Of a stretch of 64,000 nucleotides of DNA, positions 13,961-36,480 are shown in pieces; the first letter of the stretch is position 1; each line of letters opens with the position of its first letter. The DNA is from Bacteroides muris (ex Afrizal et al. 2022). GTDB taxonomy: Bacteria > Bacteroidota > Bacteroidia > Bacteroidales > Bacteroidaceae. The position numbers were made by a program, and so were the translations under genes. The notes beneath the pieces were generated by a model. That model was not told the DNA's origin. It saw only the letters and a list, made by a program, of their open reading frames with translations, and ran no database searches. The stretch lies in the NCBI RefSeq assembly GCF_004793475.1, contig NZ_SRYZ01000007.1, forward strand, positions 1 to 64,000, read 5' to 3'.

Positions 13961-14046
13961 TAAGTATACGACTGAATGGCATTCACTATACGACTGAATA
14001 GGGTTCAGTATACGACTGAAATGCATTCAGTATGCGATAGATTTCA
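13961..14046. repeat. Array A: four 22-bp units with palindromic core
   Basis: Four copies of a TTCAGTATACGACTGAA-like core are phased at exactly 22 bp; the TATACG centres start at 13965, 13987, 14009 and (as TATGCG) 14031. The core is an inverted repeat, TTCAGT/ACTGAA around 5 nt. Outer units are degenerate. The 5-bp linkers differ (TGGCA, TAGGG, ATGCA). The array sits between the GLPGLI gene and the barrel gene, both on the minus strand. The same core recurs in array C 22 kb away. Confidence 0.9.
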
Positions 14047-14072
14047 CGAATGCTTACGGGTGTGGAGAAATA

Positions 14073-14936
14073 TTATCGTTCCAGTGGATTATAAGGAACG
14101 TTTTTCGGGTTCTTGGTTGCATTGCCGTGTTCATCACTAACCTTAATGGTGACGTTCGGCATGCTTCCGGTGATAAATCCTACCGGATTGGCATAATAAC
14201 GTTCGTGCACTTTGTTGTATGCTTTGCGGTTCATCGGTTCGTGCTTCTTTCCGTCGAAAAGTATCGGCCGATATGTGTGGCATTGCTCTACACCTGTGGC
14301 AGTGAATGAATAATGCCCTTCACTGTCTTCGGCTTTCAGTATCAGTCCGGGCAGTCCGCAAAGCTTCCATGGACCTTCGCTGACGGGTATTTCTGCAGTA
14401 AACCATGCCGTCCATGTACGGCCTTTTAATTGACATTCGGCTTTGCTGCAAAGGTAGGAGAGGACACTATCGTTTTCTGCCAGTATCTTCCACTGCGGAC
14501 GTTCATCCGTTTCTTCGCAACGTAGGCGGGATATGCCTGCCACTTCATCGAGAGTCGTTACTTTTCCGGCAGGATAACCTCTGAAGGTTCGTTCGCTCAG
14601 TTTGCTTGTTCCGTATTGTTTCAGATGTTCATTAATCGTTTCCTGCGAGGCTTTATTGGCGAAGTCTACTGCCAGTACAGAGTCGCAAACATACTTGGTG
14701 TAACTGTAGAATTTAGAGAGATTTTTACCGACTTCCAGCATCATGGTTTCTTCCGTAATATTTTCCGGCTTTTCCGTATTACTGATACAGCGCGTTTCAT
14801 ATTGCACAAGGATTTGTGCTTCACCGATGGTATCATTCTGTATTTTCGTTCCATCAGAAACGATGATTTGTGCCTTCGCTTGTGATGCGAACAATATAGC
14901 GAGACACAGATTGAGGAAAATAATTCTTGCACTCAT
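14073..14936 (-). CDS. GLPGLI family protein
   Basis: This 287-residue secreted protein has a signal peptide (MSARIIFLNLCLAILFASQAKAQ). It carries the signature WKLCGLPGLILKAED at about 200-214, which names the family. GLPGLI proteins are confined to Bacteroidetes and often sit next to a TonB-receptor-like barrel, as here. Their role is unknown; export or processing of a small product has been suggested. The divergent neighbour is a sensor kinase/regulator pair that may control this cassette. Confidence 0.9.
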   Translation of the reverse strand: MSARIIFLNLCLAILFASQAKAQIIVSDGTKIQNDTIGEAQILVQYETRCISNTEKPENITEETMMLEVGKNLSKFYSYTKYVCDSVLAVDFANKASQETINEHLKQYGTSKLSERTFRGYPAGKVTTLDEVAGISRLRCEETDERPQWKILAENDSVLSYLCSKAECQLKGRTWTAWFTAEIPVSEGPWKLCGLPGLILKAEDSEGHYSFTATGVEQCHTYRPILFDGKKHEPMNRKAYNKVHERYYANPVGFITGSMPNVTIKVSDEHGNATKNPKNVPYNPLER

Positions 14937-15151
14937 AGTTTTTACATTTTTAGAGGTTTTACATATTGCTTCCAGCGATTATTGTACTGCAAAACTATGC
15001 GGATTTTGCTTCAGAAGAGGCTGAAAGTTATTACTGAAATATTACTCAATGCATAATATCTGCCTCGCACGTACCTATATTTGCAAGCTAACTTCTACCT
15101 TTGCCGGTACTAAATGAAAGTCTTTCTAAGTGAGACTAAAAAAGAACAATT

Positions 15152-16687
15152 ATGGAACAACGGATTAAGATCGTTTGGATATTCTCCATCGCATCGATAC
15201 TGCTTATTACCTGCGGACAGGTCTACTGGTTGCGTAATCAGTATCAGTATATGAATGATGAACAAATCAATGATATTTATGATTGCATCTTGCAGACCAC
15301 CCAACAGTATGACTCTATCCGTACTCCCCAACCCAAAAAGGTGCTTAGCAATACCAATATGTTCTTCTATCAGCTTAGCAAATCCATTGATTTGGAAAAG
15401 CGGACTACTATCGACGAATTAATTTTGGGTGTTCTGAAAGGGCGGGACTTGGAGAGCTTGGGCCAAAAGAATACAGAAATTCTCAAAATAGAGCAGCAGG
15501 ACTCTGCCAGTACAGATGATAAAGAGAGAGAGGCAAAGCGTAGGGAATGGGCATTGGCGTTAGACACCCTTTTGCCGGAAGAGCGGCTCATTGCGAAGGA
15601 TTCATTCAAAATCAATATGTCCGATAAAGATGCTCCTAATTTGAACTCTATTATTAATCTTTATCGTTTGGAGTTGGATGTGCCTTTTGCGTTGCAGCAA
15701 TTTGATTCCTTGCTTGCCATACGTTTGGACGAACAAACGTTTACTACGCATCTGGTGGTTTCCGAAGATTCCATTTACCAGTGGAATGCGGAACTGAAAC
15801 GGCAAGGTACATTGTTCAATCCATATATAGAAGTAATGTATCCTTATAATCCCCTGAAACGCCAGTTTGTGCTTGTTTCCGTGAAGGTTTCACCTCATGT
15901 GGTACTTGTGCGTATGGGTTGGCAGTTAGTGGGCAGTACATGTCTGATATTTCTGCTGGGGCTTTGTCTGCTGTTTCAGATAAAAACCATCTTGAAGCAA
16001 CGGCGGATAGACGAACTGCGAAAAAGCTTTGTAAACACTATGATACATGAACTGAAACGTCCCGTCCAGGCTCTGAAAATGTGTATAGCCTTTCTCAATG
16101 ACAAGTCTATGCGAACAGATGAGAAAGCGATGGATGAAGTGATTCACGATTCCATGTCCGAGCTGGATAACTTGTCGGCCTATCTTTCAAAACTACGTGA
16201 TATGACGCGTGCCGATGATGAACACACGCAGCTTTCCGTCCGTACATTTGATATAAAGACGAGTTTGGAAAAGCTTGTCCGGCTTTACCATGTTCCTGAG
16301 GATAAGGATGTTGCTATTGAAACCCATTTCAGTTCGGAGACTCTGGTAACGGCAGACCCGGTGCATGTTTCTAATATTATCAGTAATTTGATAGAGAACG
16401 CCGTAAAGTATTCGGGCAAGTCTGTGCATATTGTTGTAGATTGCCTTTTGCAGGATTACCAATTGACGATACGGGTGTCTGATGATGGCATCGGCATTCC
16501 GGTTTCCGAACAGAACCGTGTATTCGATAAGTTTTATCGGGGTAGTAATCTTCCCGACCGTTCGTTGCCCGGCATTGGTCTGGGGTTGAGCTATGTAAAG
16601 TTGCTGGTAGAGGCGCATCATGGAAGCATTTCTTTAAATAGTCAGGCAGGCAAGGGAACAATGATTGAAATTAATATTCCTCAATAA
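15152..16687 (+). CDS. Sensor histidine kinase
   Basis: This 511-residue kinase has transmembrane segments at about 8-26 and 252-276, which bracket a periplasmic sensor of about 225 residues with no recognised fold. The phospho-acceptor is H299 in the H-box MIHELKRPVQ. Then come the N-box NIISNLIENAVKYS, G1 VSDDGIGIP, F-box FDKFYRG and G2 GIGLGLSYVKLLVEAHHG. There is no HAMP domain. It is followed after 45 nt by the OmpR-type regulator and is divergent from the GLPGLI-barrel genes, its likely targets. Confidence 0.93.
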   Translation: MEQRIKIVWIFSIASILLITCGQVYWLRNQYQYMNDEQINDIYDCILQTTQQYDSIRTPQPKKVLSNTNMFFYQLSKSIDLEKRTTIDELILGVLKGRDLESLGQKNTEILKIEQQDSASTDDKEREAKRREWALALDTLLPEERLIAKDSFKINMSDKDAPNLNSIINLYRLELDVPFALQQFDSLLAIRLDEQTFTTHLVVSEDSIYQWNAELKRQGTLFNPYIEVMYPYNPLKRQFVLVSVKVSPHVVLVRMGWQLVGSTCLIFLLGLCLLFQIKTILKQRRIDELRKSFVNTMIHELKRPVQALKMCIAFLNDKSMRTDEKAMDEVIHDSMSELDNLSAYLSKLRDMTRADDEHTQLSVRTFDIKTSLEKLVRLYHVPEDKDVAIETHFSSETLVTADPVHVSNIISNLIENAVKYSGKSVHIVVDCLLQDYQLTIRVSDDGIGIPVSEQNRVFDKFYRGSNLPDRSLPGIGLGLSYVKLLVEAHHGSISLNSQAGKGTMIEINIPQ

Positions 16688-16732
16688 GTCCGTGCTAACC
16701 CGCATAATCCCTACTCTAAAATAACCAATGAT

Positions 16733-17416
16733 ATGAAAGCCTTGAAAATACTTTTTGCCGATGATGATTTGAAATATTCAATGCTGCTGAAGCGCTTTCT
16801 TGAGAAGGAAGGCTATGAAGTGACTTATGCCGGAAACGGGGAAATTGCTCTGGAACAATTTCCGCTCATAAAGCCTGATTTGGTATTGCTCGATATCAAT
16901 ATGCCCGGTTACAATGGCTTTGAAGTGGCTGAACGCATTCGCGAGACGGATAAACACGTCCTGATTTTTTTCCTTTCCGACCGTAGCGATAAGGCCGACC
17001 GCCTGCAAGGATTCCAACTGAAGGCGAACGATTATCTTGCCAAACCCTTCTATCCGGAAGAGCTGACAGCGCGTATCCGCGAGCGTTTCACTTCGCAGTT
17101 GTCCGGCGTGGCGGAGAATGAGATGTATGCTTTCGGCCATTCCGTATTCAATTACAGTACGAACGAGATTCGTACGGGAAATAGTAAGGTGCTGATTACT
17201 TCCCGTCAAGCCGATATCCTTCGCTTGCTTGCGCTGAATGTGAATAAGACTGTCGGCCGCGATATGTTGCTGGATGCCGTGTGGGGCACTGCCTCATATG
17301 CCAATTCCCTTGCCTTGAATGTGCAGGTGTCCTATCTGAGGCGGGCATTGAAAAACGACCCGGCCGTGAGGATTGAGTCGTTGATGAAAAAGGGGTATAT
17401 GCTTGCCGTTCCCTGA
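16733..17416 (+). CDS. OmpR-family response regulator
   Basis: This 227-residue protein has a receiver domain (1-120) with acidic pocket DDD (10-12), phospho-acceptor D54 in VLLDINMPG, a Ser switch in FFLSD and Lys in LAKPF. The C-terminal winged helix (about 130-227) has ITSRQADILRLLALN and the recognition-helix region NVQVSYLRRALKNDP. It pairs with the histidine kinase just upstream. Its output probably includes the neighbouring envelope genes. Confidence 0.93.
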   Translation: MKALKILFADDDLKYSMLLKRFLEKEGYEVTYAGNGEIALEQFPLIKPDLVLLDINMPGYNGFEVAERIRETDKHVLIFFLSDRSDKADRLQGFQLKANDYLAKPFYPEELTARIRERFTSQLSGVAENEMYAFGHSVFNYSTNEIRTGNSKVLITSRQADILRLLALNVNKTVGRDMLLDAVWGTASYANSLALNVQVSYLRRALKNDPAVRIESLMKKGYMLAVP

Positions 17417-17489
17417 AACCATCTTTATCTTTGGATTGTTATACAAACAAGAGACTTCAAAAAAGAGAGCTTGTGATGAGTTTAGGAGG

Positions 17490-17663
17490 ATGAATGAACA
17501 AAGTCCTGACAAGTTGGGGGATAGACCCGAGGTTTGCCGAAATGTATTTCTCTTCGCGCAACAAAGTTTGGAAAGAGTACGAGCGCATTCAGTCCGACAT
17601 CTCGACCATTTGTTGGTTATAGCGCAGAAGTTTGATTTGAAGCTGTATCAGTATTCCGATTAA
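17490..17663 (+). CDS. Possible small ORF(s) after the response regulator, frame uncertain
   Basis: A good AGGAGG (17484-17489), unusual for this genome, precedes two overlapping ATGs. ATG 17494 gives 42 residues (MNKVLTSWGIDPRFAEMYF to STICWL, ending about 17622) with Bacteroides-like codon use and better spacing. ATG 17490 gives 57 residues ending LLVIAQKFDLKLYQYSD at 17663. The first frame looks natural early and the second late, so the gene may be one protein broken by a frameshift near 17610. No family recognised. Confidence 0.3.
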   Translation: MNEQSPDKLGDRPEVCRNVFLFAQQSLERVRAHSVRHLDHLLVIAQKFDLKLYQYSD

Positions 17664-18718
17664 TATATCAACCGGAACTCCGCATATACAGGCAAGTGGT
17701 CGCTGTATCCTCCTTGATACTTCATCCCGTAGTAGGTGCGGAAAGGTTGCTGCCCTCCGTATTTCTTGTCTCTTGTCAGTAGGAAGGGCGGGCGGAATAC
17801 ATCCGACTTTGCTTCCTCCGTACGTAGTGATGAGTGTTCTTGCAACAGCGTGCCCGATACGATGATGTGGTCCAGCAGTCCCCATTCTCCTTGATACCTG
17901 TAGCTGCCGAAGTGCTTGTGTGTCTTGGCTTTTTCTGCCAGCAGATGATAAAGCTTTTGTGGACGTAGAGAGTCTTGCAATGTTGACGGTGCTACCGCCT
18001 CCAACACCTCCTTTACCGATTTATTCTCCGGATAATCGTTGAAATCCCCTAAAAGGACAATTTGCGGATGTCGGCGTATCGTGTATAGACTGTCTATGGC
18101 ATACTTCACCTTTCGGGCAGCCAGTAGCCGGTAAGGTTCAGACTCTCTTGCCCCTCCCGAACGGGATGGGAAGTGAGCTACCAGTACATCAAGCGTATCC
18201 CGATTCAGCAACAATCCGCTGACGTGAAGAATGTCCCGTGTGGGACGGCTATTCTTCCGGGGCTTGTCTACGGGGAGGCTCTGATAGGAAAGCAGCTTGA
18301 AAAGATTACGTTGATAAAGCAGCGCTATGTCGATGCCGCGTTCGTCGGGAGACTGTGTCATCACATACCGGTAGTCTGCTTCGCGCAAGGCGGAGTAGCG
18401 GGTAAGGTCGCGCATCACACTGTCATTCTCCACCTCACACAAGGCAACAAGGGCAGGCGGCGTCCATCCTCCGGTGGCGATGATGACGCGGGCTATATTG
18501 TCCAGTTTCTTTCTGTATTTAGAGTAGTTCCAATGCCGGACGGCATCCGGCAGGAACTCGTAGTCATTCTTTAGTGTATCATGTCGGCAGTCGAATAGGT
18601 TTTCTACGTTGTAGCTTACTATCCGAAACGTGAGGGTATCTTTTCCTTCTTGCCCGTACAGAGTGATGTACGGGCATAGAAGGAAGAGTATAACTCCTAT
18701 CTTATAGATAACGTTCAT
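17660..18718 (-). CDS. Endonuclease/exonuclease/phosphatase family protein (secreted)
   Basis: This 352-residue protein has a signal peptide (MNVIYKIGVILFLLCPYITLYGQ). The EEP fold is shown by VSYNVENLFD (about 34-43), VALCEVEND (metal-binding Glu), LLGDFNDYPENKS (about 228-240) and the terminal SDHLPVYAEF with its catalytic Asp-His. Such exported Bacteroides members could hydrolyse nucleic acids or phosphodiesters outside the cytoplasm. Substrate cannot be named from sequence. Confidence 0.87.
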   Translation of the reverse strand: MNVIYKIGVILFLLCPYITLYGQEGKDTLTFRIVSYNVENLFDCRHDTLKNDYEFLPDAVRHWNYSKYRKKLDNIARVIIATGGWTPPALVALCEVENDSVMRDLTRYSALREADYRYVMTQSPDERGIDIALLYQRNLFKLLSYQSLPVDKPRKNSRPTRDILHVSGLLLNRDTLDVLVAHFPSRSGGARESEPYRLLAARKVKYAIDSLYTIRRHPQIVLLGDFNDYPENKSVKEVLEAVAPSTLQDSLRPQKLYHLLAEKAKTHKHFGSYRYQGEWGLLDHIIVSGTLLQEHSSLRTEEAKSDVFRPPFLLTRDKKYGGQQPFRTYYGMKYQGGYSDHLPVYAEFRLIY

Positions 18719-18757
18719 ACAAACTATTCCCGTTCCCTTTTAAGGAACGTGGGATAT

Positions 18758-20215
18758 TTATTTCACCGGTATGTGCTTCAGTATATCCAGCAGATGGTCC
18801 CAGAACTTCTGTACGGTAGGAATCAGCATCCGTTCGTCGGGAGAGTGTACACCCTGCAGGGTAGGTCCGAAGGAAATCATGTCCAGTGCCGGGTATTTGT
18901 CAAGGAACAGTCCGCATTCCAAACCTGCATGGATAGCTTTTACCTTGGCATCTACACCGAACAAGCGTTTGTAGGACTCGACAGCCACTTCCAGAATTTC
19001 TGAATGCGGGTTGGGTTTCCAGCCCGGATATCCGTCTCCGAAGGATACGGCTGCTCCACCCATTTCGAATACAGTGCGTACCATATTGGCAATGTCTTGT
19101 TTGGAGGAGGCGGTAGAACTGCGCTGGCTGGTCTCGATGCGGATGATATGGCCGGGTTTCATCTTTACGGAGGCCAGATTGGTAGAGGTTTCCACCAACC
19201 CCGGAATGTCTTGGCTCATGGCATATACACCGTGAGGTGCGGCATAGATGGTTTGCAGCAATCGCTTGGCGGTATCTTTGTCAATGGCTTTGGGACGGGC
19301 TGCTTCCGATTCGAGCACGAATTGGAGGTCTGGGTCAACGACGGCATATTCTGCCTCCACTTCGGCGGCAAAGACATTCAAGTCTGTGCGCAGGGCATGC
19401 TTGTCGGCATCGGGTATGGCAATTACCGCGTGTGCTTCGCGGGCAATGGCATTGCGCAGGTTACCACCGTCTATTTCGCAAAGGTACATGTCGTACTTCT
19501 GGGATGCCTGGCTCAGGAAGCGGTTCAGCAGTTTGTTGGCATTGCCACGCCCCAGGTGTATGTCGCCGCCGGAGTGTCCGCCTTTCAGCCCCTTTACCTG
19601 CACTTTGCAGCAGAAGTATCCTGCAGGTACGTCCACTTCCCGGTAGGTGAACTCGCCAACGGAATCTATGCCTCCTGCGCAGCCGATGAAGAGCTCGCCT
19701 TCATCTTCGGAATCAAGGTTCAGCAGAATGTCTCCGTTCATGAAACCTTCTTTCAGTGCAAAGGCACCGGTCAGTCCGGTCTCCTCGTCCACGGTGAATA
19801 AGCATTCGACAGGACCGTGTTCAATGCTGTCGTCGGCAAGGATAGCCAGTTCGGTGGCTACACCGATGCCGTTGTCGGCTCCCAAGGTAGTACCTTTGGC
19901 TTTCAGCCATTCGCCGTCAATTTCGGTTTCGATAGGGTCGGTCAGGAAATCGTGCTTCACGTCGTTGTTCTTTTCGCATACCATGTCGATGTGCGATTGA
20001 AGTACGACAGTCTTGCGGTTTTCCATGCCCGGAGTGGCGGGTTTCTTTATCAGAACGTTTCCGGCTCCGTCCACTTTTGTTTCCAACTTATGTTTTTCTC
20101 CGAATGCTTTTAAGTAAGCAATGATTTTCTCCTCCTCCTTAGAAGGACGCGGCACTTGGCAGATTTCCTCGAAATAGTGAAATACACCGGCCGGTTTCAA
20201 GTCTTTTTCTTCCAT
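18758..20215 (-). CDS. pepD: Aminoacyl-histidine dipeptidase (M20, PepD)
   Basis: This 485-residue zinc dipeptidase cleaves Xaa-His and related dipeptides. Metal and catalytic blocks of peptidase family M20C are clear: VVLQSHIDMVCEKN (about 68-81), TTLGADNGIGVA (about 114-125), the DEETGLTGAF general base (about 145-154), and a C-terminal AIHAGLECGLF. No signal peptide is present, so it is cytoplasmic. Its length and order match E. coli PepD. It is monocistronic, with an AT-rich 230-bp gap upstream. Confidence 0.95.
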   Translation of the reverse strand: MEEKDLKPAGVFHYFEEICQVPRPSKEEEKIIAYLKAFGEKHKLETKVDGAGNVLIKKPATPGMENRKTVVLQSHIDMVCEKNNDVKHDFLTDPIETEIDGEWLKAKGTTLGADNGIGVATELAILADDSIEHGPVECLFTVDEETGLTGAFALKEGFMNGDILLNLDSEDEGELFIGCAGGIDSVGEFTYREVDVPAGYFCCKVQVKGLKGGHSGGDIHLGRGNANKLLNRFLSQASQKYDMYLCEIDGGNLRNAIAREAHAVIAIPDADKHALRTDLNVFAAEVEAEYAVVDPDLQFVLESEAARPKAIDKDTAKRLLQTIYAAPHGVYAMSQDIPGLVETSTNLASVKMKPGHIIRIETSQRSSTASSKQDIANMVRTVFEMGGAAVSFGDGYPGWKPNPHSEILEVAVESYKRLFGVDAKVKAIHAGLECGLFLDKYPALDMISFGPTLQGVHSPDERMLIPTVQKFWDHLLDILKHIPVK

Positions 20216-20394
20216 AATTATCTGAATTAACAGCTGCCTTACATGCGTTTATGCAGCCTTCATTATCAATTGTCAATTATTAATTCTCCATTAAATTAAC
20301 CGCTTATTGCTAAATATGGTTAAAATGGTTGGCTATTTTATTCCCCTTTCTCTTTTTTTAGAGTAAAAAAGGCGTGTTAGTCCAACCAAAGCCC

Positions 20395-20402
20395 TATATT
20401 TG
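20395..20402 (+). promoter_or_regulatory. -7 box upstream of the small membrane protein/OmpH pair
   Basis: TATATTTG matches the Bacteroidales -7 consensus and lies 45 nt before the ATG at 20448. No exact TTTG is seen at -33. Confidence 0.45.
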
Positions 20403-20447
20403 CACCCACAAAAATAGTAAAAACGCTATTTTCATGTAACAAAATTA

Positions 20448-20687
20448 ATGGAAATGCTTGATACAATATTGATAACTCTGTTAATAGTTGCTATTTGCAT
20501 TGTTTTATTGGGTGTAAAGGTCTTTTTTGTGAAAGGCGGCAGGTTTCCTAATGGGCATGTCAGTGGCAATAAGGCTATGCGCGATAGAGGTATCGGCTGT
20601 GTGCAGTCGCAGGATAGGGAAGCGCAACGCAAATCCCGTTTTTCCATTGATGAACTGGAAAAAGCCTTAAACGATAGTATGAACTAA
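20448..20687 (+). CDS. Small single-pass membrane protein
   Basis: This 79-residue protein has one N-terminal transmembrane helix (about 5-28, ILITLLIVAICIVLLGVKVFFV). A charged cytoplasmic tail follows with GGRFPNGHVSGNKAMRDRGIGCVQSQDREAQRK. The type is conserved in Bacteroides without assigned function. It lies 25 nt upstream of the OmpH-like lipoprotein and likely shares its transcript. Not recognised beyond this. Confidence 0.65.
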   Translation: MEMLDTILITLLIVAICIVLLGVKVFFVKGGRFPNGHVSGNKAMRDRGIGCVQSQDREAQRKSRFSIDELEKALNDSMN

Positions 20688-20712
20688 ATTTTAAAAACAA
20701 TATTTATCAATT

Positions 20713-21315: not shown

Positions 21316-21340
21316 TATATATCCTAATGATATAAGAAAT

Positions 21341-21370
21341 AAGGATGTACTTTCGGTACATCCTTTTTTA
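21341..21370 (+). terminator. Rho-independent terminator after the OmpH-like gene
   Basis: AAGGATGTAC and GTACATCCTT form a 10-bp perfect stem with a short loop and a T-run (21364-21369), 25 nt after the stop. Confidence 0.85.
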
Positions 21371-21375
21371 TAGGA

Positions 21376-21467
21376 GGGTGTGTCAAAACCCTCTTTTTAA
21401 CAAAATCACCCTTGCTACAGATATCTGTGGCAGGGGTGATTTTCATATTTTTGGTGTTTTGACACCC
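21376..21467. repeat. Nested inverted repeat, MITE-like or terminator of cutC
   Basis: The outer ends GGGTGTGTCAAAAC (21376-21389) and GTTTTGACACCC (21456-21467) are near-perfect inverted repeats, differing by a TG insertion. Inside lies a second imperfect hairpin, AAAATCACCC (21402-21411) with GGGTGATTTT (21434-21443). Size (92 bp), IS-like ends and lack of coding capacity fit a small non-autonomous element. It ends 10 bp before the cutC stop codon and could also terminate cutC transcription. Confidence 0.5.
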
Positions 21468-21477
21468 TGTTTTGAAG

Positions 21478-27917: not shown

Positions 27918-27921
27918 CACG

Positions 27922-28281: not shown

Positions 28282-28316
28282 GCAGCAAATGTAGGAAAAA
28301 TAATAATATAGATAAT

Positions 28317-29189: not shown

Positions 29190-29203
29190 ACCAATCCCAT
29201 CTT

Positions 29204-30037
29204 ATGAAAAAGAAAATATTCCTGGCAGTGTTTCTCTGCTGCGGCATGTTTGCAGCAATGGCGCAGACTGCTGCCGACTCTCTTGCCATCGTTTCTGCCA
29301 CCTGGCAGACTGAGCCCCTGCAGAAAGGGATGCTTTATAAAAAGGCAGTATTCAGTTCTTTGTATGGAGTTCCTCAGGAAGTGTCCATTCTTGAAATATC
29401 CCCGAAACGCTACCGTTTCGATGTGCTCGTCCACAATCCCAAGGAGGAGACCAGCGTAGCCGCCCGGCATGCAGGTGCGGTGGCGGCCATCAATGGTTCC
29501 TATTTTGATATGAAAGCCGGTAATTCCGTCTGTTATCTGCGTAAGGACGGGGTGGTGATAGACACTACCTCTACCGGGGGGGTGGCAACAGTGTCCAATG
29601 GAGCTGTGTTCATAAGGAAGGGTAGGCTGGAACTGATTCCCTGGAGCAGGCAGGATGAAAAGACGTGTACTTTGAAAAAGGGCACTGTGCTGGCTTCCGG
29701 TCCTTTGATGCTGAAGGACGGGCAAATGTGCGACTTGTCCGGGACTAACCGGAATTTTGTAAATACCAAGCATCCCCGCAGTGCTGTGGCGCTGACAAGA
29801 GAAGGAAAAATCCTGCTTATTGTTGTTGACGGACGTCGGAAGGGAAAATCGGAAGGTATCAATATACCCGAGCTTGCTCATATGATTCGTATATTGGGCG
29901 GGGAGGATGCGTTGAATCTGGATGGTGGCGGTTCTTCTACGCTGTGGAGTGGGGCGTTGCCGGATAAGGGAATAGCCAATACCCCGAGTGGCAGTGCCGA
30001 GCGTAAGGTTGCCAATTCTCTTTGTGTGTACGAATAA
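29204..30037 (+). CDS. Secreted phosphodiester glycosidase family protein (NAGPA-like)
   Basis: This 277-residue protein has a signal peptide ending AAMAQ (about 21). The NAGPA/DUF2233 domain fills the rest: VAAINGSYFDMKAGNSVCYLRKDGVVID (about 90-117), HPRSAVALTREGKILLIVVDGRRKGKSEGIN, and the terminal ALNLDGGGSSTLW (about 238-250). Relatives remove N-acetylglucosamine from phosphodiesters; bacterial members may act on exopolysaccharide or teichoic-type linkages. Substrate is not predictable. Confidence 0.88.
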   Translation: MKKKIFLAVFLCCGMFAAMAQTAADSLAIVSATWQTEPLQKGMLYKKAVFSSLYGVPQEVSILEISPKRYRFDVLVHNPKEETSVAARHAGAVAAINGSYFDMKAGNSVCYLRKDGVVIDTTSTGGVATVSNGAVFIRKGRLELIPWSRQDEKTCTLKKGTVLASGPLMLKDGQMCDLSGTNRNFVNTKHPRSAVALTREGKILLIVVDGRRKGKSEGINIPELAHMIRILGGEDALNLDGGGSSTLWSGALPDKGIANTPSGSAERKVANSLCVYE

Positions 30038-30073
30038 GTTAGGGAAGTAAATGGATAAATCTTAAGTTTTTTG

Positions 30074-30081
30074 TAATTTTG
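30074..30081 (+). promoter_or_regulatory. -7 box for queDE
   Basis: TAATTTTG fits TAnnTTTG. The transcript would start near 30088 and open with a short hairpin (TCGCATC/GATGCGA, about 30085-30111). No preQ1 aptamer consensus is visible. Confidence 0.5.
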
Positions 30082-30145
30082 CCGTCGCATCGAGGTGACA
30101 TTAGATGCGATAACTTATATTATATTAATTAGCGTATTAACAAGT

Positions 30146-30478
30146 ATGTACACAGTCATCAAACGCATGGAAGTGTCGGCTGCCCATAGCCTGAAACTTT
30201 CTTATCGCAGCAAGTGTGAGAATCTGCACGGTCACAACTGGATTATCACTGTCTATTGCCGTTCCAAAGAGCTGAATGCGGACGGAATGGTGGTAGACTT
30301 CAGTCACATCAAGCAGGTGGTAAAGGAACAGCTGGACCATCACAATCTTAATGAAGTGCTTTCCTTCAATCCCACAGCCGAGAACATAGCCCGTTGGATA
30401 TGCGACCAGATACCCACTTGCTTCAAGGTAGAGGTGCAGGAGTCGGAATCAAACATTGCCGTCTATGAGGAAGATTAA
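30146..30478 (+). CDS. queD: 6-carboxytetrahydropterin synthase
   Basis: ATG 30146 (MYTVIKRMEVSAAHSL) is the family start; the upstream in-frame stretch is leader. The 110-residue enzyme turns dihydroneopterin triphosphate into 6-carboxytetrahydropterin, the second step to queuosine. Zinc ligands sit in SAAHSL (about 10-15) and ENLHGHNW, with the catalytic Cys in SKCENLHGH; the distal DHHNLNEV and ESNIAVYEE complete the T-fold. It overlaps queE by 14 nt. Confidence 0.93.
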   Translation: MYTVIKRMEVSAAHSLKLSYRSKCENLHGHNWIITVYCRSKELNADGMVVDFSHIKQVVKEQLDHHNLNEVLSFNPTAENIARWICDQIPTCFKVEVQESESNIAVYEED

Positions 30479-31010
30479 TGAGATATTCTACAGTTTGCAG
30501 GGAGAAGGATACCATACGGGTACTCCGGCTGTCTTTATCCGTTTTTCCGGTTGCAACCTGAAGTGCCCCTTTTGTGATACGCAGCATGAGGACGGCATAC
30601 TGATGTCCGATGAAGATATCGTAACAGAAGTCAGTAAATACACTGCCGCTACCGTGATATTGACCGGTGGAGAACCCTCCCTTTGGATTGACCATGAATT
30701 TGTGGATTGTCTGCACCGGGCAGGAAAGTATGTCTGCATTGAAACAAACGGTACCCGTCCGCTGCCGGATAATATAGATTGGGTGACCTGTTCTCCCAAG
30801 CAGGGGGCAAAGCTGGAAATTACGCGTATGGATGAAGTGAAGGTGGTGTATGAAGGGCAGGATATTACTGTTTATGAGCAGCTGCCTGCCAGGCATTTCT
30901 TTCTCCAGCCTTGCTCTTGCAGCAATACGGCCGAAACGGTGGATTGCGTGATGAAGCATCCTAAGTGGAGGCTTAGTTTGCAGACACATAAGCTGATAGA
31001 TATCCGGTAG
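30465..31010 (+). CDS. queE: 7-carboxy-7-deazaguanine synthase (radical SAM)
   Basis: ATG 30465 (MRKINEIFYSLQGEG) is chosen, giving 181 residues; a TTG three codons earlier is unlikely. QueE makes 7-carboxy-7-deazaguanine from the QueD product. It shows FYSLQGEGYHTGTPAVFIRFSGCNLKCPFCDT, with the Cys-x3-Cys-x2-Cys iron-sulfur motif (about 28-35), and ILTGGEPSLW for SAM binding. It is the second gene of the queDE pair; queC is not in the window. Ends at a strong bidirectional hairpin. Confidence 0.95.
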   Translation: MRKINEIFYSLQGEGYHTGTPAVFIRFSGCNLKCPFCDTQHEDGILMSDEDIVTEVSKYTAATVILTGGEPSLWIDHEFVDCLHRAGKYVCIETNGTRPLPDNIDWVTCSPKQGAKLEITRMDEVKVVYEGQDITVYEQLPARHFFLQPCSCSNTAETVDCVMKHPKWRLSLQTHKLIDIR

Positions 31011-31020
31011 GCGTTTATAA

Positions 31021-31061
31021 AACGATAAAGGCTGTAAGCATTGCTTACAGCCTTTATCGTT
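31021..31061. terminator. Bidirectional terminator between queE and tRNA-Trp
   Basis: Two perfect complementary 20-nt arms (31021-31040 and 31042-31061) are separated by one base, forming an 18-bp stem in practice. It ends both the queE transcript (+) and the tRNA-Trp transcript (-). Confidence 0.8.
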
Positions 31062-31065
31062 CATG

Positions 31066-31138
31066 CACGGGAGGAGAGGCTCGAACTCCCGACACCCGGT
31101 TTTGGAGACCGGTGCTCTACCAACTGAGCTACTCCCGT
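31066..31138 (-). tRNA. tRNA-Trp (anticodon CCA)
   Basis: The minus strand folds with acceptor ACGGGAG/CTCCCGT, T8-A9, D-arm GCTC/GAGC, and anticodon stem CCGGT/ACCGG around loop CTCCAAA, giving anticodon CCA. The T-arm is GGGAG-TTCGAGC-CTCTC. The discriminator is G, as expected for tryptophan. The 3' CCA is not encoded. Confidence 0.95.
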
Positions 31139-31213
31139 GTTTGCGGCTGCAAAGGTAATGTAAACTTTCAAATATACAAGTAATATACGTACTTATTTTA
31201 TAAAGAAAGTTGC

Positions 31214-31789
31214 TTATAGCATCTGTAAGTCCTGATACATAATGCGATAGGCAGCTGCCTTTTTTTCCAGTGCCAGCGGGTAGGCTCTCGAGGAAGAAGG
31301 CATCCGGTAGAGACGCATCGGATGGTTTTCAAAAAGAAACTCTGTGAAGTCTCCTACTTTGGGTTTGTCGATGGAGAACTGTGTGCACAGCGTATCCGTC
31401 GCCTTCTCGCCGGTGGTGACGATAGCCTTGCATTGAGGTATCCGGTGTAGCAGGGCAGGGATGTCCGTGGGTTGCACCACTTCCAGAAACTTATCCGAGG
31501 CGTTGTCTTGCAGGCGCCGTATGGCAGAGGCTGTGTCGAACAAGGCAATACCTTTTTCCTGCAGGAAACTGATGAGGCGTGCTTTGCAGAAAGCCTTCTT
31601 CGTCTTGTCTACAAAATAATCCTTGTCATTGAAGAAAAGTAATCCGGTAATCCTCCACATGTCATTGTTCCAGTTGGGATAGTAAAACTCCATGGACCAC
31701 CGTTTTTTCTGCGGAGGAAAACTTCCCAGCATAAGCAGACGGGCATTGCCGGGAAGGAAGGGTTCTAAAGGGTGTTGTTCTATTTCCAT
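31214..31789 (-). CDS. Uracil-DNA glycosylase-fold protein
   Basis: The start is ATG 31789 (MEIEQHPLEPFLPGNARLLMLGSFPP); upstream codons are low-complexity. The 191-residue protein has the UDG superfamily pattern: LLMLGSFPPQKKRWSMEFYYPNWNNDMWRI near the N-terminus, a central CKAIVTTGEKAT strand, and the C-terminal MPSSSRAYPL in place of the HPSP loop. It resembles the mismatch-type UDG-like proteins of Bacteroidetes. Base specificity is not predictable. Confidence 0.78.
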   Translation of the reverse strand: MEIEQHPLEPFLPGNARLLMLGSFPPQKKRWSMEFYYPNWNNDMWRITGLLFFNDKDYFVDKTKKAFCKARLISFLQEKGIALFDTASAIRRLQDNASDKFLEVVQPTDIPALLHRIPQCKAIVTTGEKATDTLCTQFSIDKPKVGDFTEFLFENHPMRLYRMPSSSRAYPLALEKKAAAYRIMYQDLQML

Positions 31790-31946
31790 ACTTTCCAATC
31801 GTCTTGCCTTTCGTATAGTTCCGGATGATGGCATATTCTTCGGCGTCTTCTCCCATGGCTTGCAGTTGGTGGAGGCAGGAGGCTTTGGTTGTCAATGAAC
31901 CAGCCAGCCGCCAGCCGGCGGCATTAGGCTTGCCGGACTCCACCAT
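31662..31946 (-). CDS. Possible small ORF or fragment overlapping the UDG-fold gene
   Basis: An open frame of 94 codons (MVESGKPNAAGWRLAGSLTTKASC...) starts 33 nt after the stop of the gene at 31980. Its first 52 codons use Bacteroides-like codons (GCC, CTG, AAG, GAC). The last 128 nt overlap the UDG gene in another frame and read poorly. It may be a truncated gene whose 3' end was lost. No family recognised. Confidence 0.3.
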   Translation of the reverse strand: MVESGKPNAAGWRLAGSLTTKASCLHQLQAMGEDAEEYAIIRNYTKGKTIGKYGNRTTPFRTLPSRQCPSAYAGKFSSAEKTVVHGVLLSQLEQ

Positions 31947-31979
31947 ATTCTACTGTTTCCAGTTAGAATTCTTATTCTT

Positions 31980-32606
31980 TTATTTCTCTTCGTTGGCTTT
32001 CTGTTTCGGTTCCTTTTTGGCCAGCATCACTACGTTGTAAACGTACTCGGTCATCCATTGTTCCGAATATCCCAGACGCTCTTTGTACTGGCGTACTGCC
32101 GCTGCCGTCTTGTGTACATCGTCCTTTTTCCATACGGTTTTTGTGCAGACATCGTGTACGGTTTTTTCGGTCATGCTGCGCAGTGCTCCCTTGAAGATGG
32201 AAGGCATGCGGAATTTCCACTGCATCAGGTTTCCCATCAGCATCATAAGATCATTGGAGAAGCCCTGATACATGAAGAGGTAGCCTTGTACGTCATTTTG
32301 TGTACGACAGTGCTTTTTGACAGAAGTGTCAATTTCCTTGAAGAAGTTTTCACTGATACCGTAGTCCTGCATCAGCATTTTGCGCGAAGCGGCCTTTTCC
32401 GCTTGTCCCAAGCGTCCTCCCTGCGTGGGGATTTTGAACAGACGCTTGAAATTGGCTACATCCGGCACAAAGCGGATGTTGGTGATGCCCAGATTGGCGG
32501 CTATTACAGACTGGAAGTAGACGCGTGTCAGTGACACGAAATCTTCTACATTCTTCGAAGATACTTCTTCGGTATTCTTGTTGAATAGTTTGGCAAATAA
32601 ACTCAT
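31980..32606 (-). CDS. Conserved hypothetical protein (Bacteroides)
   Basis: This 208-residue, mostly helical, Lys-rich soluble protein has no signal or membrane segment. It starts MSLFAKLFNKNTEEVSS and contains FKEIDTSVKKHCRTQNDVQGYLFMYQGF (about 88-115). The end is strongly charged (KKEPKQKANEEK). No catalytic motif stands out. I do not recognise the family; the coding character is clear from length and codon use. Confidence 0.7.
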   Translation of the reverse strand: MSLFAKLFNKNTEEVSSKNVEDFVSLTRVYFQSVIAANLGITNIRFVPDVANFKRLFKIPTQGGRLGQAEKAASRKMLMQDYGISENFFKEIDTSVKKHCRTQNDVQGYLFMYQGFSNDLMMLMGNLMQWKFRMPSIFKGALRSMTEKTVHDVCTKTVWKKDDVHKTAAAVRQYKERLGYSEQWMTEYVYNVVMLAKKEPKQKANEEK

Positions 32607-33080
32607 ATCAAATTACGAATTATTGATTACAATTTACAAAATCGCAGGTCATCCGGCGGTTTCGGCTGCAAAAGTACGAAATAAGTTGGTTATCACCAGC
32701 ACTCTATGTCTTTTTCTACCTCTTTCAGGCAGTTCTTGGTGAAAACGGGGTCTTGGATATCGGTGCTTTTCTGTGCGCGGTAGTCTTAAGGCAGCCTGAA
32801 AGCATATTTTCCGATTATCCCAACAGCAGGGCGATGAGGATGTAGATCCGGAGCAGGTCGTTTATCAGATTTATTATTCGCATCAATGTATATATACAGT
32901 AATCTATTTGCAGTAAAAAACTTGCACAAAACAACTACTATCCTCTGTCGTTATTCAAGATTGCTTCTGTTGTTATAGAGATGAGCTTTTGCAAATTTTT
33001 GATAATCAGCAATATGAAGTCTGTTGTGCTGCAACTTGCGGCATGGGCAAATCTGGACGAACCTGATGGAATCTCCTTGC
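32607..33080. other. 474-bp gap without an intact gene
   Basis: It holds a 30-codon minus-strand remnant (32693-32785) and a 22-codon hydrophobic minus ORF (MRIINLINDLLRIYILIALLLG, 32883-32815) with no clear ribosome site. A plus-strand 37-codon frame (32981-33094) is probably chance. The rest looks like decayed sequence. Confidence 0.5.
32693..32785 (-). pseudogene. C-terminal gene remnant, unknown family
   Basis: After an in-frame TAA, 30 codons read DYRAQKSTDIQDPVFTKNCLKEVEKDIECW and stop. Codon use and composition are typical of a real helical C-terminus, but no start or upstream part remains. Parent gene not recognised. Confidence 0.35.
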
Positions 33081-33722
33081 CTATTTCAGCCTGAAGTGAA
33101 ATTTGTGCCCTTCAAACACAGGCTCCACGATGTCATAACGAACAAACTTTGCCAGCAGATGTTCGGCGGTGCGTCGGGAAAGATGCGCTAGGCGGCAGTA
33201 ACGGTTCAGTGAAAGGCGGTTGTCTTCTTCCAGCAGATTGAGCAGCAGTTGTTCCCGTTCGGTATATTCTATCAGTTCTCCTTTCAGACTTCCGCTTTGC
33301 TGCCAGACGCGTAGATGAACGGGAGTAGCCAGGATGTTTTCGTCCTTGATGCGCAGATAGGCCAAGTATTTTCCTGTTTCGTCCTTGGCGTATACCGGCT
33401 TCCGGTCACTTTCCTCGATTTGTACCACCAGCACACTGCGTCCTTCCACCAGATAGGTCTGCATGGTGTAGTTCACTTCGGGACTGCAATAAAGTCCGGC
33501 AGCCGCTTCTATCATATATTGTTCTTCGTCCGAACGGACACCGGCAATTTTCCCGTTGTCTTTCACTCCAATGAGCAGTTTTCCGCCGTCTGTATTGGCA
33601 AAGGCTGAAAGGGTTTTGGCTATCTTGCGGGCGTCGGATATTTCGAACTTGAAATCCTGTTGTTGATGCTCTCCTTCAGCTATGAGAGCGTGTATATACT
33701 CGGTGTCAGTAAGCGTTTTCAT
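33081..33722 (-). CDS. AlbA_2/Schlafen-type putative ATP-binding protein
   Basis: ATG 33722 (MKTLTDTEYIHALIAEGEHQQQDFKFE) is the start; the upstream in-frame part is AT-rich leader. The 213-residue protein has the AlbA_2 (Schlafen AAA_4) domain over residues 10-130: EGEHQQQDFKFEISDARKIAKTLSAFANTDGGKLLIGVKDNGKIAGV carries the E..DFK and ANTDGG blocks. A C-terminal winged helix (about 155-210, LLNLLEEDNRLSLNRYCRLAHLSRRTAEHLLAKFVRYDIV) suggests DNA binding. Likely a regulator; related domains also occur in RNA cleavage and defence. Confidence 0.82.
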   Translation of the reverse strand: MKTLTDTEYIHALIAEGEHQQQDFKFEISDARKIAKTLSAFANTDGGKLLIGVKDNGKIAGVRSDEEQYMIEAAAGLYCSPEVNYTMQTYLVEGRSVLVVQIEESDRKPVYAKDETGKYLAYLRIKDENILATPVHLRVWQQSGSLKGELIEYTEREQLLLNLLEEDNRLSLNRYCRLAHLSRRTAEHLLAKFVRYDIVEPVFEGHKFHFRLK

Positions 33723-33828
33723 GCTTGCAAAAGTAGATAAAAAACGCGTAAGAGCCCGTTTTTGAGGCGATTTTACCGAATATTTCAAAAAAAATATCGT
33801 TTTTCTGTATTTATTTCAAGAAAGAATG

Positions 33829-33836
33829 TATTTTTG
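33829..33836 (+). promoter_or_regulatory. -7 box of the Hc1 gene
   Basis: TATTTTTG fits TAnnTTTG, 36 nt before the ATG. It sits in an AT-rich divergent gap shared with the Schlafen-type gene. Confidence 0.6.
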
Positions 33837-33871
33837 CCAGACATTATTAACGAAGTAATTTGAAAAGGATT

Positions 33872-34048
33872 ATGAAAGAATTAGTTGAAAAAGTAGCTGC
33901 ATTATATGCAGACTTCTCAAAAGATGCAAACGCTCAGTTGGAAAACGGTAATAAGGCAGCAGGAACTCGTGCTCGTAAGGCTTCTTTGGAAATCGAAAAA
34001 GCTATGAAGGAATTCCGCAAAGCATCTTTGGAAGCTTCTAAGAAGTAA
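33872..34048 (+). CDS. Histone H1-like protein (Hc1 family)
   Basis: ATG 33872 (MKELVEKVAALYADFSKDANAQLENGNKAAGTRARKASLEIEKAMKEFRKASLEASKK) gives 58 residues; a TTG 12 nt earlier is not needed. It is basic, Lys/Ala-rich and helical, matching the small Hc1 histone-like proteins of Bacteroidetes. It should bind DNA and help compact the nucleoid. It is monocistronic, with its own promoter and a strong terminator. Confidence 0.92.
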   Translation: MKELVEKVAALYADFSKDANAQLENGNKAAGTRARKASLEIEKAMKEFRKASLEASKK

Positions 34049-34073
34049 GAAAAAAAGCATATCTTATGCTGTG

Positions 34074-34105
34074 AAAGACTGCCACGTTTGGCGGTCTTTT
34101 TTGTT
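34074..34105 (+). terminator. Terminator after Hc1
   Basis: AAGACTGCCA pairs with TGGCGGTCTT (one G-U pair) around a 4-nt loop, followed by TTTTTTG, about 27 nt after the stop. Confidence 0.85.
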
Positions 34106-34141
34106 TTTAAAAGTATTATTATTACTTTTGGCGCAGGTATT

Positions 34142-35407
34142 ATGGATGAAAACGTTCTCAATAAACTGAAGATACTGGCAGAGTCGGCAAAGTATGACGT
34201 CTCTTGCTCCTCCAGTGGTACGGTACGCTCCGGCAAGGCAGGCATGCTGGGGAATGCTGTGGGTGGCTGGGGCATCTGCCATAGTTTTGCCGAGGACGGC
34301 CGTTGCATCTCTCTGCTCAAAGTGATGCTTACCAATTATTGCATCTACGATTGTGCCTACTGCATCAACCGCCGCAGCAACGACCTGCCGCGTGCCACGC
34401 TGTCGGTGACCGAGCTTGTAGGCCTCACCATGGAGTTCTATCGCCGCAACTATATCGAAGGGCTTTTTCTGAGCAGTGGGGTGGTGCGTAATCCCGATTA
34501 CACAATGGAACGCCTGGTGCGTGTTGCCAAGGATCTCCGTACCATCCATCGTTTCAACGGTTATATCCATCTGAAAAGCATTCCCGGCGCCAGCCGCGAA
34601 CTGGTGAATGAGGCAGGGCTTTATGCCGACCGTCTCAGCGTCAATGTCGAAATACCGAAGGAAGAGAATCTGAAACTGCTTGCTCCGGAGAAAGACCATA
34701 AGAGTGTATATGCGCCTATGCGCTACATCCAGCAGGGTGTCCTTGAAAGTTCGGAAGAACGCAAGAAACACCGCCATGCTCCTCGTTTCGCTCCTGCCGG
34801 ACAAAGCACACAGATGATAGTAGGTGCTACTGCCGAGACGGACAAGGATATTCTGTATCTTTCGTCAGCCCTCTACAAGGGACCTACGATGCGACGTGTC
34901 TACTATTCGGGCTATATTTCCGTCAATACCTACGATAAGCGCCTGCCGGCCTTAAAACAGCCCCCTTTAGTACGTGAAAACCGGCTCTACCAGGCTGATT
35001 GGTTGATGCGTTTTTATCAGTTCAAGGTGGAGGAAATAGTGGATGATGCCTATCCGGACCTTGATTTGGAGATTGACCCCAAGCTGTCCTGGGCTTTGCG
35101 TCATCCCGAGCAGTTTCCAGTCGATGTGAACAAGGCGGATTATGAACTGTTGCTTCGCGTGCCGGGCATCGGCGTGAAGTCGGCACGGCTGATAGTGGCT
35201 TCCCGGCGTTTCTCCAAGATAGGTTTCTATCAGTTGAAGAAGATAGGGGTGGTGATGAAGAAGGCACAGTATTTCATTACCTGCTGCGAGTTGCCGATGC
35301 ACACGGTCAATGAGCTGACTCCGCAAGGGGTACGCAGCCTGCTGTTGCCCAAACCGAACAAGAAAAAAGTGGATGAGAGGCAGTTGATGCTTGATTTTGG
35401 CGAATGA
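34142..35407 (+). CDS. Putative DNA modification/repair radical SAM protein (TIGR03916 type)
   Basis: ATG 34142 (MDENVLNKLKILAESAKYDVSCSSSGTVR) is the family start; earlier codons overlap the Hc1 terminator. The 421-residue protein has the radical-SAM cluster motif CIYDCAYC (Cys-x3-Cys-x2-Cys, about 67-74) in VMLTNYCIYDCAYCINRRSND. A C-terminal helix-hairpin-helix (LLLRVPGIGVKSARLIVASRRF, about 335-356) indicates DNA binding. It overlaps by 4 nt its constant partner, the DUF4130-type protein. The reaction is unknown. Confidence 0.93.
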   Translation: MDENVLNKLKILAESAKYDVSCSSSGTVRSGKAGMLGNAVGGWGICHSFAEDGRCISLLKVMLTNYCIYDCAYCINRRSNDLPRATLSVTELVGLTMEFYRRNYIEGLFLSSGVVRNPDYTMERLVRVAKDLRTIHRFNGYIHLKSIPGASRELVNEAGLYADRLSVNVEIPKEENLKLLAPEKDHKSVYAPMRYIQQGVLESSEERKKHRHAPRFAPAGQSTQMIVGATAETDKDILYLSSALYKGPTMRRVYYSGYISVNTYDKRLPALKQPPLVRENRLYQADWLMRFYQFKVEEIVDDAYPDLDLEIDPKLSWALRHPEQFPVDVNKADYELLLRVPGIGVKSARLIVASRRFSKIGFYQLKKIGVVMKKAQYFITCCELPMHTVNELTPQGVRSLLLPKPNKKKVDERQLMLDFGE

Positions 35408-36177
35408 ATATTTTTTTATACGATAAGACTTTTGAGGGATTGTTGACTTCTGTTTTTGAAGCCTATTCCCGCCGCACTTTCCCCGATGCACTGTTGTTGG
35501 AAGGAGAGCCTCTTCCATTGTTCTGCGATGAAATATTTACAGTGATAACCGATGAAGAGAAATCCGGCCGCGTCTGGCGGGGATTGCAGAAGAAACTGTC
35601 GTCTGCGGCACTTGCCTGCCTCGCCCAGTGCTGGCTGGCGGAGGAACCGGAAACTCCCATGCTGCTGTTCCGCTATATCCGCAAGGCGATAGATGCTCTT
35701 CGCTCCATTGAAACGAATTTTGCCGATCCTGATGTGCTGGAGTTCTCCCGTATGTGGAAGCGGGTGGATTGGGAGCGTATACGCCTGCTTCAGTTTGTCC
35801 GTTTTCAGAAGGCTGCGGACGGTACTTTCTTTGCGGCCGTCGAGCCCGAGAAGAATGCCCTTCCTTTGGTGACGGAGCATTTCAAGGATCGTTTTTCCGA
35901 CCAGCGTTGGCTGATTTATGACATCAGGCGAGCCTATGGGTACTATTACGACTTGAAGGAGGTGCGCCAAGTGACTTTTGGTGAGGACAGCTGCGAGGGG
36001 CATCTTGTCACCGGCATGCTCGACGAAAGTCTGATGGACAAAGACGAACGGCTTTTCCAGTCTCTCTGGAAAACCTATTTCAAGGCAATCTGCATCAAGG
36101 AACGCCTCAATCCCCGAAAGCACAAGCAAGACATGCCCGTGCGCTATTGGAAATATCTGACGGAGAAACAGCAGTGA
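35404..36177 (+). CDS. Putative DNA repair protein, DUF4130/TIGR03915 type
   Basis: This 257-residue partner of the radical SAM protein is translationally coupled to it (ATGA overlap). The DUF4130 fold resembles uracil-DNA glycosylases: MNIFLYDKTFEGLLTSVFEAY at the start, SRMWKRVDWERIRLLQFVRFQK in the middle, RWLIYDIRRAYGYYYDLKEV, and a C-terminal KERLNPRKHKQDMPVRYWKYLTEK. It probably handles a base or lesion processed by its partner. The pair is widespread but its substrate is not established to my knowledge. Confidence 0.92.
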   Translation: MNIFLYDKTFEGLLTSVFEAYSRRTFPDALLLEGEPLPLFCDEIFTVITDEEKSGRVWRGLQKKLSSAALACLAQCWLAEEPETPMLLFRYIRKAIDALRSIETNFADPDVLEFSRMWKRVDWERIRLLQFVRFQKAADGTFFAAVEPEKNALPLVTEHFKDRFSDQRWLIYDIRRAYGYYYDLKEVRQVTFGEDSCEGHLVTGMLDESLMDKDERLFQSLWKTYFKAICIKERLNPRKHKQDMPVRYWKYLTEKQQ

Positions 36178-36392
36178 TTCCTTTTATTCGATTTTCCACT
36201 GTCATCTCGGGAAATTCCTGCCCAGTTGCAGCAAATATCCCTCATCATAGTTTATTAATACGAATCTGTGGTTGAAACGGGGCATAACGGCCCTGAAACG
36301 AGTACAATGATATTTTGATGAATTGTTGTGATTTAATGAAGTGATGATGGCGGTTTGTAATATTCTGATTATCTGCGTGTTTAAGATGACCT

Positions 36393-36480
36393 GCATTCAG
36401 TATACGACTGAACCCTATTCAGTATACGATTGAATGGCATTCAGTATACGACTGAATTAGGTTCAATATGGCACTGTATC
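36393..36480. repeat. Array C: four 22-bp units, same core as array A
   Basis: Centres TATACG start at 36401, 36423 and 36445, with a degenerate TATGGC at 36467, exactly 22 bp apart. The full core TTCAGTATACGACTGAA occurs at 36396 and 36440 with close variants between. Linkers are 5 bp (CCCTA, TGGCA, TTAGG). It lies in a 406-bp convergent gap (36178-36583), which holds nothing else I can identify. Confidence 0.9.

Follow-up and report, generated by a model that had tools for sequence, protein, structure and literature searches.

Intergenic arrays of palindromic 17-bp words in a 22-bp register in Bacteroides: candidate protein-bound, BIME-like elements of DNA architecture

The stretch of Bacteroides muris DNA analysed here (the window, positions 1 to 64,000 of contig NZ_SRYZ01000007.1) carries two intergenic arrays, A and C, in which a dyad-symmetric 17-bp word, TTCAGT-N5-ACTGAA, is repeated every 22 bp. 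Further arrays of this word, and arrays of unrelated words in the same register, were found elsewhere in the genome and in related species. With somewhat less than even confidence, we propose that they are intergenic non-coding DNA elements, likely bound by protein, that serve as architecture or boundary elements in the manner of bacterial interspersed mosaic elements (BIMEs).

Arrays A and C in the window

Array A (13960..14042, plus strand) has its units at 13960-13976, 13982-13998, 14004-14020 and 14026-14042, separated by the 5-bp spacers TGGCA, TAGGG and ATGCA in that order. In array C (36396..36478, plus strand) they lie at 36396-36412, 36418-36434, 36440-36456 and 36462-36478, with the spacers CCCTA, TGGCA and TTAGG. 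Four units each, an exact 22-bp spacing and a degenerate last unit were what the original prediction had described; its unit centres were 3 bp too low, the true ones being 13968 and 36404 for the first units and so on. Only three of the eight units are perfect (14004, 36396 and 36440), and the final units carry 4 mismatches in A and 5 in C. With up to two mismatches, TTCAGT-N5-ACTGAA matches the window 10 times, compared to a mean of 2.9 and a maximum of 8 in 100 shuffles, and seven of these 10 matches fall in A and C. The gene contexts differ, as had been claimed: A is flanked by two minus-strand genes and C lies in a convergent gap. The earlier view that gene duplication is not the source of the arrays is also supported. 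No terminator-like site was found at array C.

The closest sampled relative, genome G119, with matched flanks about 89-97% identical, has an MgtC-family gene at the site of C (Pfam E 6.6e-40). A clean insertion at C was rejected, since the gap differs from that of G119 by replacement of this gene. The aligned parts of window positions 8604-17545 are 72-79% identical to G119, and the sequence from 17545 onward is 88-96% identical; around A (13200-15000) the best match is genome G113, with 89-90% identity. This suggests that the segment around A was replaced by transfer.

Distribution of the word

The genome of the window (G000) comprises 4.39 Mb in 150 contigs. Allowing three mismatches, the word has 47 matches in it versus 10 for the reversed control; allowing two, the numbers are 33 and 1. 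These 33 copies sit in 11 arrays with 22-bp register, apart from a solitary one on contig C33. A predominance of single scattered copies, which the original prediction had named as evidence against itself, was therefore not observed.

We compared one genome per species. Copy number is patchy: of 59 further genomes of the genus, six had at least 10 matches, and in other families of the order the word had at most four matches per genome (40 genomes). Two units in register were found in 25 stretches of named records, with Bacteroides gallinarum, rodentium, timonensis, fluxus and cutis among the species; further such records came from several other Bacteroides assemblies, one uncultured Mediterranea and one Bacteroidales bacterium. 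Two partial matches lie in unverified faecal scaffolds. Phage or plasmid origin was rejected, since two exact-pattern viral scans returned 0 stretches and a plasmid search gave no match.

The fetched loci contain 71 distinct arrays in which two or more units are near-perfect; 70 of these keep the 22-bp register and one, L195, does not. The set is drawn from this and other genomes and includes orthologues, so that the counts are not independent, and loci with a single near-perfect unit, such as several in G011, fall outside it. L296 (10 kb of G089) did not enter the analysis. The 70 arrays have four units (39 cases), three (25) or two (6), and 32 of them contain both unit orientations, counting units with up to two mismatches. 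In G011 the word takes a form of its own, with G or A at position 6 in 35 of 40 units, which points to homogenisation within a genome. Five contigs of this genome (C3, C10, C53, C56 and C67) stop no more than about 130 bp from an array, which is expected of repeats.

Across 227 units (those with more than three mismatches being omitted), conservation is strongest in the centre, ATACGA, and just as strong at positions 2, 14 and 16; it is weakest at positions 1, 3, 5, 6, 13 and 17. At stem pair 5:13, C-C occurs in 36 units, G-G in 13, A-T in one and C-G in none; when units with four mismatches are admitted (242 units), C-G appears once. Within the TTCAGT family, to which the pairing tests were applied with units of more than four mismatches omitted, compensatory pairing was not in excess. 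Watson-Crick pairs numbered 1177 of 1452 in the unit-centred register, against a mean of 1188.9 in 2000 re-pairings, and 869 of 1020 in the spacer-centred register, against 867.3 in 2000 re-pairings. Together with the pattern of pair 5:13, this makes it look as if the letters of the unit, rather than a hairpin, are under constraint.

An Rfam-type search of the window gave only two tRNAs and nothing at the arrays. A search of six loci for RNA families gave one tRNA, with only sub-threshold microRNA matches at the arrays. A known RNA family was thus rejected for lack of a gathering-level Rfam match to the arrays.

Flanking scaffold and IHF-like site

The arrays occur in two recurring surroundings. 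Class 1, to which A, C and others belong, has ATTTGTTG..AATTTAT, followed by TTTTGTAAC-N3-TTGATTATCA about 25 bp ahead of the array, and ATTTGTAAATAAT after it. In class 2, the array directly follows a G-rich head (TTCTGAGAGGGGGTA or a similar sequence), which in many cases forms the right arm of a larger inverted repeat. The class-1 scaffold with array A spans 13888..14042 on the plus strand (TTTGTTGTAATTT ... TTGATTATCAA ... array); its right part is unrecognisable there. The class-1 dispersed element with array C (36295..36569, plus strand) shares 71-83% identity, over 140-274 bp, with copies at further loci of this and other genomes.

Read outward, the class-1 motif is WATCARNNNNTTR, which is close to the consensus of integration host factor (IHF), TAAnnnnTTGATW or WATCAAnnnnTTR (PMC10380432). 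We used this consensus instead of the table in PMC6907758, which prints WATCAANNNNTTR in the H-NS row, apparently swapped with IHF. By sequence match, A has an IHF-like site of the strict form on the minus strand at 13923..13935 (AATCAACGGATTA, fitting WATCAANNNNTTR), 24 bp from the array; that of C (AATCAGAATATTA, 36358..36370, minus strand) is one base off the strict consensus and lies 25 bp away. The outward WATCARNNNNTTR was found within 100 bp of 20 of 72 arrays, in all 20 at 23-25 bp from the array edge. In these matches the site is outside the array and not between palindromes. For 14 of 72 arrays the 70-bp flanks contained the strict consensus, compared to a mean of 1.07 and a maximum of 5 for shuffled flanks. 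A relaxed search also gave six inward sites, four of them at 12 bp. The genome has 16 matches to the HU/IHF fold (PF00216). In L089, at around 5929, synteny with G119 is lost some 25 bp beyond the array, close to a ATTTGTAAAT-like class-1 end.

Unrelated words in the same register

Array B of the window (52470..52650, plus strand) consists of about 6.5 copies of an unrelated, GAACAGTTTGTTTC-like word every 22-23 bp or so and belongs to the same class by its geometry. It adjoins a DUF1016/YhcG nuclease gene. We surveyed the wider class in 858 kb, about a fifth of the genome. A tandem-repeat search identified 41 intergenic arrays, of which 16 have period 22 and three have 44-45, the next in frequency being period 16, with four; in coding DNA, period 22 accounts for 2 of 29 tandem repeats. 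The other words include TTGCAG-N5-CTGCAA-like ones at three places, TTTACATACTATGGTAAA-like ones at two, and TGCCATCACGGTGGCA within a called open reading frame (ORF).

In 77.9 kb of intergenic DNA, after dropping five gaps that hold the TTCAGT word, distances of 11, 22, 33 and 44 bp between palindrome centres occurred 31, 22, 15 and 15 times, whereas 3.9, 3.1, 2.8 and 2.1 were expected from shuffling. Three successive palindromes at constant spacing, counted without gene calls, were found at seven places for 22 bp and at no more than one for any other spacing from 15 to 30; six of the seven do not contain the TTCAGT word. In 200 kb of E. coli there were no triples at constant spacing, nor a palindrome-distance peak of this kind, the greatest excess being at 9 bp. 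In 140 kb of G067 we found one triple, with a spacing of 28. The largest excesses in G113 were at 33, 22 and 11 bp (8, 8 and 8 versus 1.5, 2.1 and 3.3). The class of phased arrays is strong in this genome and uneven across the genus.

Another word, ATACGACTGAGGGTACCTCAG, occurs as a dispersed repeat in 10 of 99 genomes, with 14 matches in G035 and none in G000. Separately, a dispersed repeat resembling a miniature inverted-repeat transposable element (MITE), with ends like GTGTCAAAAC ... GTTTTGACACA, is present in three copies on contigs C62 and C106 of G000 (L236 near 8757, L244 near 953 and L267 near 18069).

Orthologous gaps with different words

Relatives often hold a phased array of 22 or 23 bp with a different word at orthologous gaps. 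We examined the gap between two S46 peptidase genes in 15 genomes, of which G042 could not be placed and G112 has a gap of only 23 bp, with no room for an array. A 22-bp phased dyad triple, with a score unmatched in 100 shuffles, was found in 9 of the remaining 13, though in G115 period 22 is tied with period 27. The words are TTCAGTATACGACTGAA in G000, G119, G124 and G035, CTAAG[GT]ATACGACTGAG in G018 and G031, TTCAGTCACTGACTCAA in G102, CTC..GAG in G115 and ATACTT-AGCAC-AAGTAT in G056. The best-scoring dyads are centred on the 5-bp spacer, with unit centres and spacer centres taking turns at 11-bp intervals. Most genomes share the head GCGTTAGAAG .. AGGGGG ahead of the array, so that the array at this gap seems to have changed in place. 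The pattern does not extend to G047, G113, G057 and G127, which lack a significant 22-bp triple there and, by eye, carry inverted copies of another 17-mer.

The NamZ gap could be placed in 14 of the 15 genomes, G112 giving no match. In eight of the 14, no more than one of 100 shuffles attained the score, five of these genomes having the array at 22 bp and three at 23 bp, the latter showing GAGATACGTATCTC by eye. The phased signal was not reached in G047, G102, G057, G035 and G115, and G031 has no gap. Both flanks of gap A were found in 5 of 10 genomes. No shuffle in 100 matched the array of G000 or that of G113 (CTCCCCAGCTGGGGAG), G047 (12) and G035 (89) did not pass the test, and G119 has no room.

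Changes between relatives

Six arrays of G000 have orthologues in G119, one of them placed by a single flank only. At L087/L160 the two differ by exactly one 22-bp unit, lost or gained. In L092/L161, two units have switched orientation in place, the spacers staying the same, and G124 has the state of G000. Both flips carry inverted arms of about 9 bp, and template switching would be a simple explanation for them. Compared with L086, the array is missing from G119 within an otherwise aligned gap (129 bp). Here a clean insertion was rejected, since G119 retains the outer scaffold and internal deletion by short repeats is equally likely.

Array positions are kept across species. At the NamZ gap, arrays of the word family are present in five genomes (G000, G119, G018, G056 and G043), with different spacers, unit number and orientation. 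We also compared changes in arrays with those in their intergenic flanks, without the L088 and L089 pairs. Conservation of the array above its flanks is clear for the orthologues L091/L129 (0 of 83 positions changed in the array, 54 of 464 in the flanks) and fair for L091/L131 (6 of 83 and 63 of 464). The original prediction had missed these in-place flips, as well as the IHF-like site at a fixed distance, the unrelated 22-bp arrays (including 52470-52633) and the difference in word between species at fixed sites.

The array-bearing region 3765-6184 of L090 is 92-96% identical to the genomes of L144 and L164, which exceeds the 82-86% seen at other array loci with one of those genomes. The region has one edge some 100-250 bp away from the array. 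These identities suggest a transferred block.

Possible nature of the arrays

The strict register of two helix turns and the IHF-like site, taken with the gene contexts and the lack of a terminator at C, lead us to favour a protein-bound element acting at the DNA level. With units every 22 bp (two helix turns), a candidate protein would bind cooperatively on one face of the helix, an IHF- or HU-type protein may bend the neighbouring site, and the arrays would have a role in DNA architecture or as boundaries, like the one ascribed to the BIMEs of E. coli. The word would be read by a protein, with word and reader changing together between species, and copies might spread by copying or conversion between loci. 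Transcription, supercoiling or the folding of the chromosome may be affected. Helical phasing and protein-binding arrays, as already put forward in the original prediction, are supported as likelier than chance. Still more tentatively, the 22-bp arrays may be a kind of DNA punctuation that keeps its places and geometry by inheritance, whereas its word is replaced between species, stays alike across the loci of a genome and co-evolves with a candidate reader. If this is true, Bacteroides would possess an intergenic code for chromosome organisation or transcription boundaries comparable to enterobacterial BIMEs but set apart by its strict helical register and by a word that varies from one species to the next. 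Four-unit arrays with rephased controls would then be ready probes for finding the protein, and the gaps that carry different words would be natural test cases.

Several observations weigh against such a protein-bound element. No reader protein was identified, and the functional effect is wholly one that we infer. The asymmetric centre of the unit is odd for a simple homodimer site. None of 13 other-word arrays inspected in this genome has the outward IHF-like placement of the family, three having an IHF-like site within 120 bp in another placement. Palindrome distances show smaller excesses at 8, 14, 19, 21 and 41 bp, and two of the six other-word triple places lie inside called ORFs. The class is weak in G113, where 400 kb gave a single triple, at 23 bp, and there are zero triples in 120 kb of G128. 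Moreover, the array is not clearly better conserved than its flank at L094/L159 (3/83 versus 0/87), L092/L163 (6/83 versus 3/55), L092/L161 (14/83, with the two flips, versus 7/56) or L087/L160 (0/61 versus 5/161, a difference that is not clear). L094 differs from L141 at 32/83 and from L177 at 35/82 array positions, with about half of the flank changed.

The palindromes could instead form RNA or single-strand DNA hairpins between cistrons that protect mRNA ends or slow transcription, like repetitive extragenic palindromic sequences (REPs) at 3' ends. Palindromic arms do recur in unrelated words and at the same gaps, and A and C fold as RNA better than most of their shuffles do, on either strand (z -2.2 to -3.5), although this is expected for palindromes. 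Of the 16 intergenic arrays with period 22, seven are in co-directional gaps; however, five are in divergent gaps and four in convergent ones (compared to 203, 80 and 62 among all gaps >60 bp, with long ORFs as rough, not curated, gene calls). RNA hairpins do not require a strict 22-bp register, array C has no terminator-like site, and both the mixed unit orientation and the lack of excess compensatory pairing in either register speak against the hairpin RNA arrays that had been considered originally. We regard hairpins as unlikely. To the same degree we doubt that the arrays are a selfish non-autonomous repeat (MITE- or BOX-like) mobilised by a transposase from elsewhere, with no host function and a register inherited by copying. 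The sequence similarity of the class-1 element of C to its other copies, the patchy copy number and the loss or gain of the array at L086 would fit such a repeat. On the other hand, no terminal inverted repeats, clean target duplication or clean empty site were seen by eye at the loci inspected, positions persist across species, and unrelated words have the register in common.

Operator arrays of one transcription regulator would account for sequence-specific letters and phased sites, but the neighbouring genes are thematically mixed (GH43, S46 peptidases, pyruvate formate-lyase, pantothenate kinase, NamZ) and C sits between convergent gene ends, which makes this idea very improbable. A regulon was rejected, since the neighbour genes scanned have no function in common. 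Hardly any more weight, and if anything slightly less, goes to recombination sites of a tyrosine-recombinase-like enzyme with symmetric arms around an asymmetric 5-bp overlap. The conserved, asymmetric centre of the unit, the change of copy number by one 22-bp unit at L087/L160 and the in-place flips of single units at L092/L161 are in line with it. Yet the flips also fit template switching on short inverted repeats, and flipping a 17-bp unit with the same spacers seems to involve too short a segment for ordinary synapsis.

Comparison with known systems

Plasmid iterons have a register of about 22 bp and bind their initiator cooperatively. The arrays differ from them in being spread over chromosomal contigs in both orientations, with zero plasmid matches. 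No initiator family was found among the 30 array-near proteins scanned with Pfam (four of them without a family), which are only part of the neighbours. The iteron reading offered by the original prediction thus finds no support in these data. Like the arrays, FopS is a multicopy, mostly intergenic element in Bacteroides. This small RNA consists of a single-stranded 5' stretch and a terminator hairpin (PMC11697453), and it was rejected as a candidate because of this different architecture.

A literature search, largely without subscription papers and preprints, found no occurrence of the word, and nothing fitting on palindromic, REP, BIME or 22-bp repeats, IHF or concerted evolution in Bacteroides. 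In the available portion of PMC1525189, Bacteroides occurs in the references only, and the REP candidates tabulated in the corresponding portion of PMC12306157 are from three Bacteroidota genomes, none of them Bacteroides.

REP super-families are tagged GTAG or CGTC, and CGTC repeats are reported from Bacteroidetes among five phyla (PMC3733652). The arrays resemble them as short palindromes with several families per genome, and share with REPs and BIMEs short palindromic units in intergenic positions at many loci. Within 5 bp of 243 units, however, the head tags are rare or missing (GTAG 1, CTAC 10, CGTC 0, GACG 0). The REP-associated tyrosine transposase (RAYT, a Y1 transposase, PF01797) has no match in the array-bearing genomes G000, G035, G056 and G119. 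Matches in 19 of 99 genomes include array-bearing G011 and G018 as well as array-poor G045 and G031, and mobilisation by RAYT was rejected since PF01797 does not track array number. As both tag and RAYT fail, we do not class the arrays as REPs or BIMEs.

In E. coli, the sequence between REPs interacts with IHF and BIME-2 binds gyrase (PMC2817692), and a BIME impedes supercoil diffusion (PMC6907758). With BIME-1, the reiterative ihf BIME (RIB), the proposed protein-bound elements have in common intergenic palindromic repeats at many loci, an IHF-type site (predicted here) and the absence of coding capacity. They differ in their 17-bp words, strict 22-bp register and two to four units, in the position of the IHF-like site outside the array, and in a word that differs between species at fixed sites. 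We therefore file the arrays as elements that may work like a BIME, not as a BIME, and their mode of evolution is unusual.

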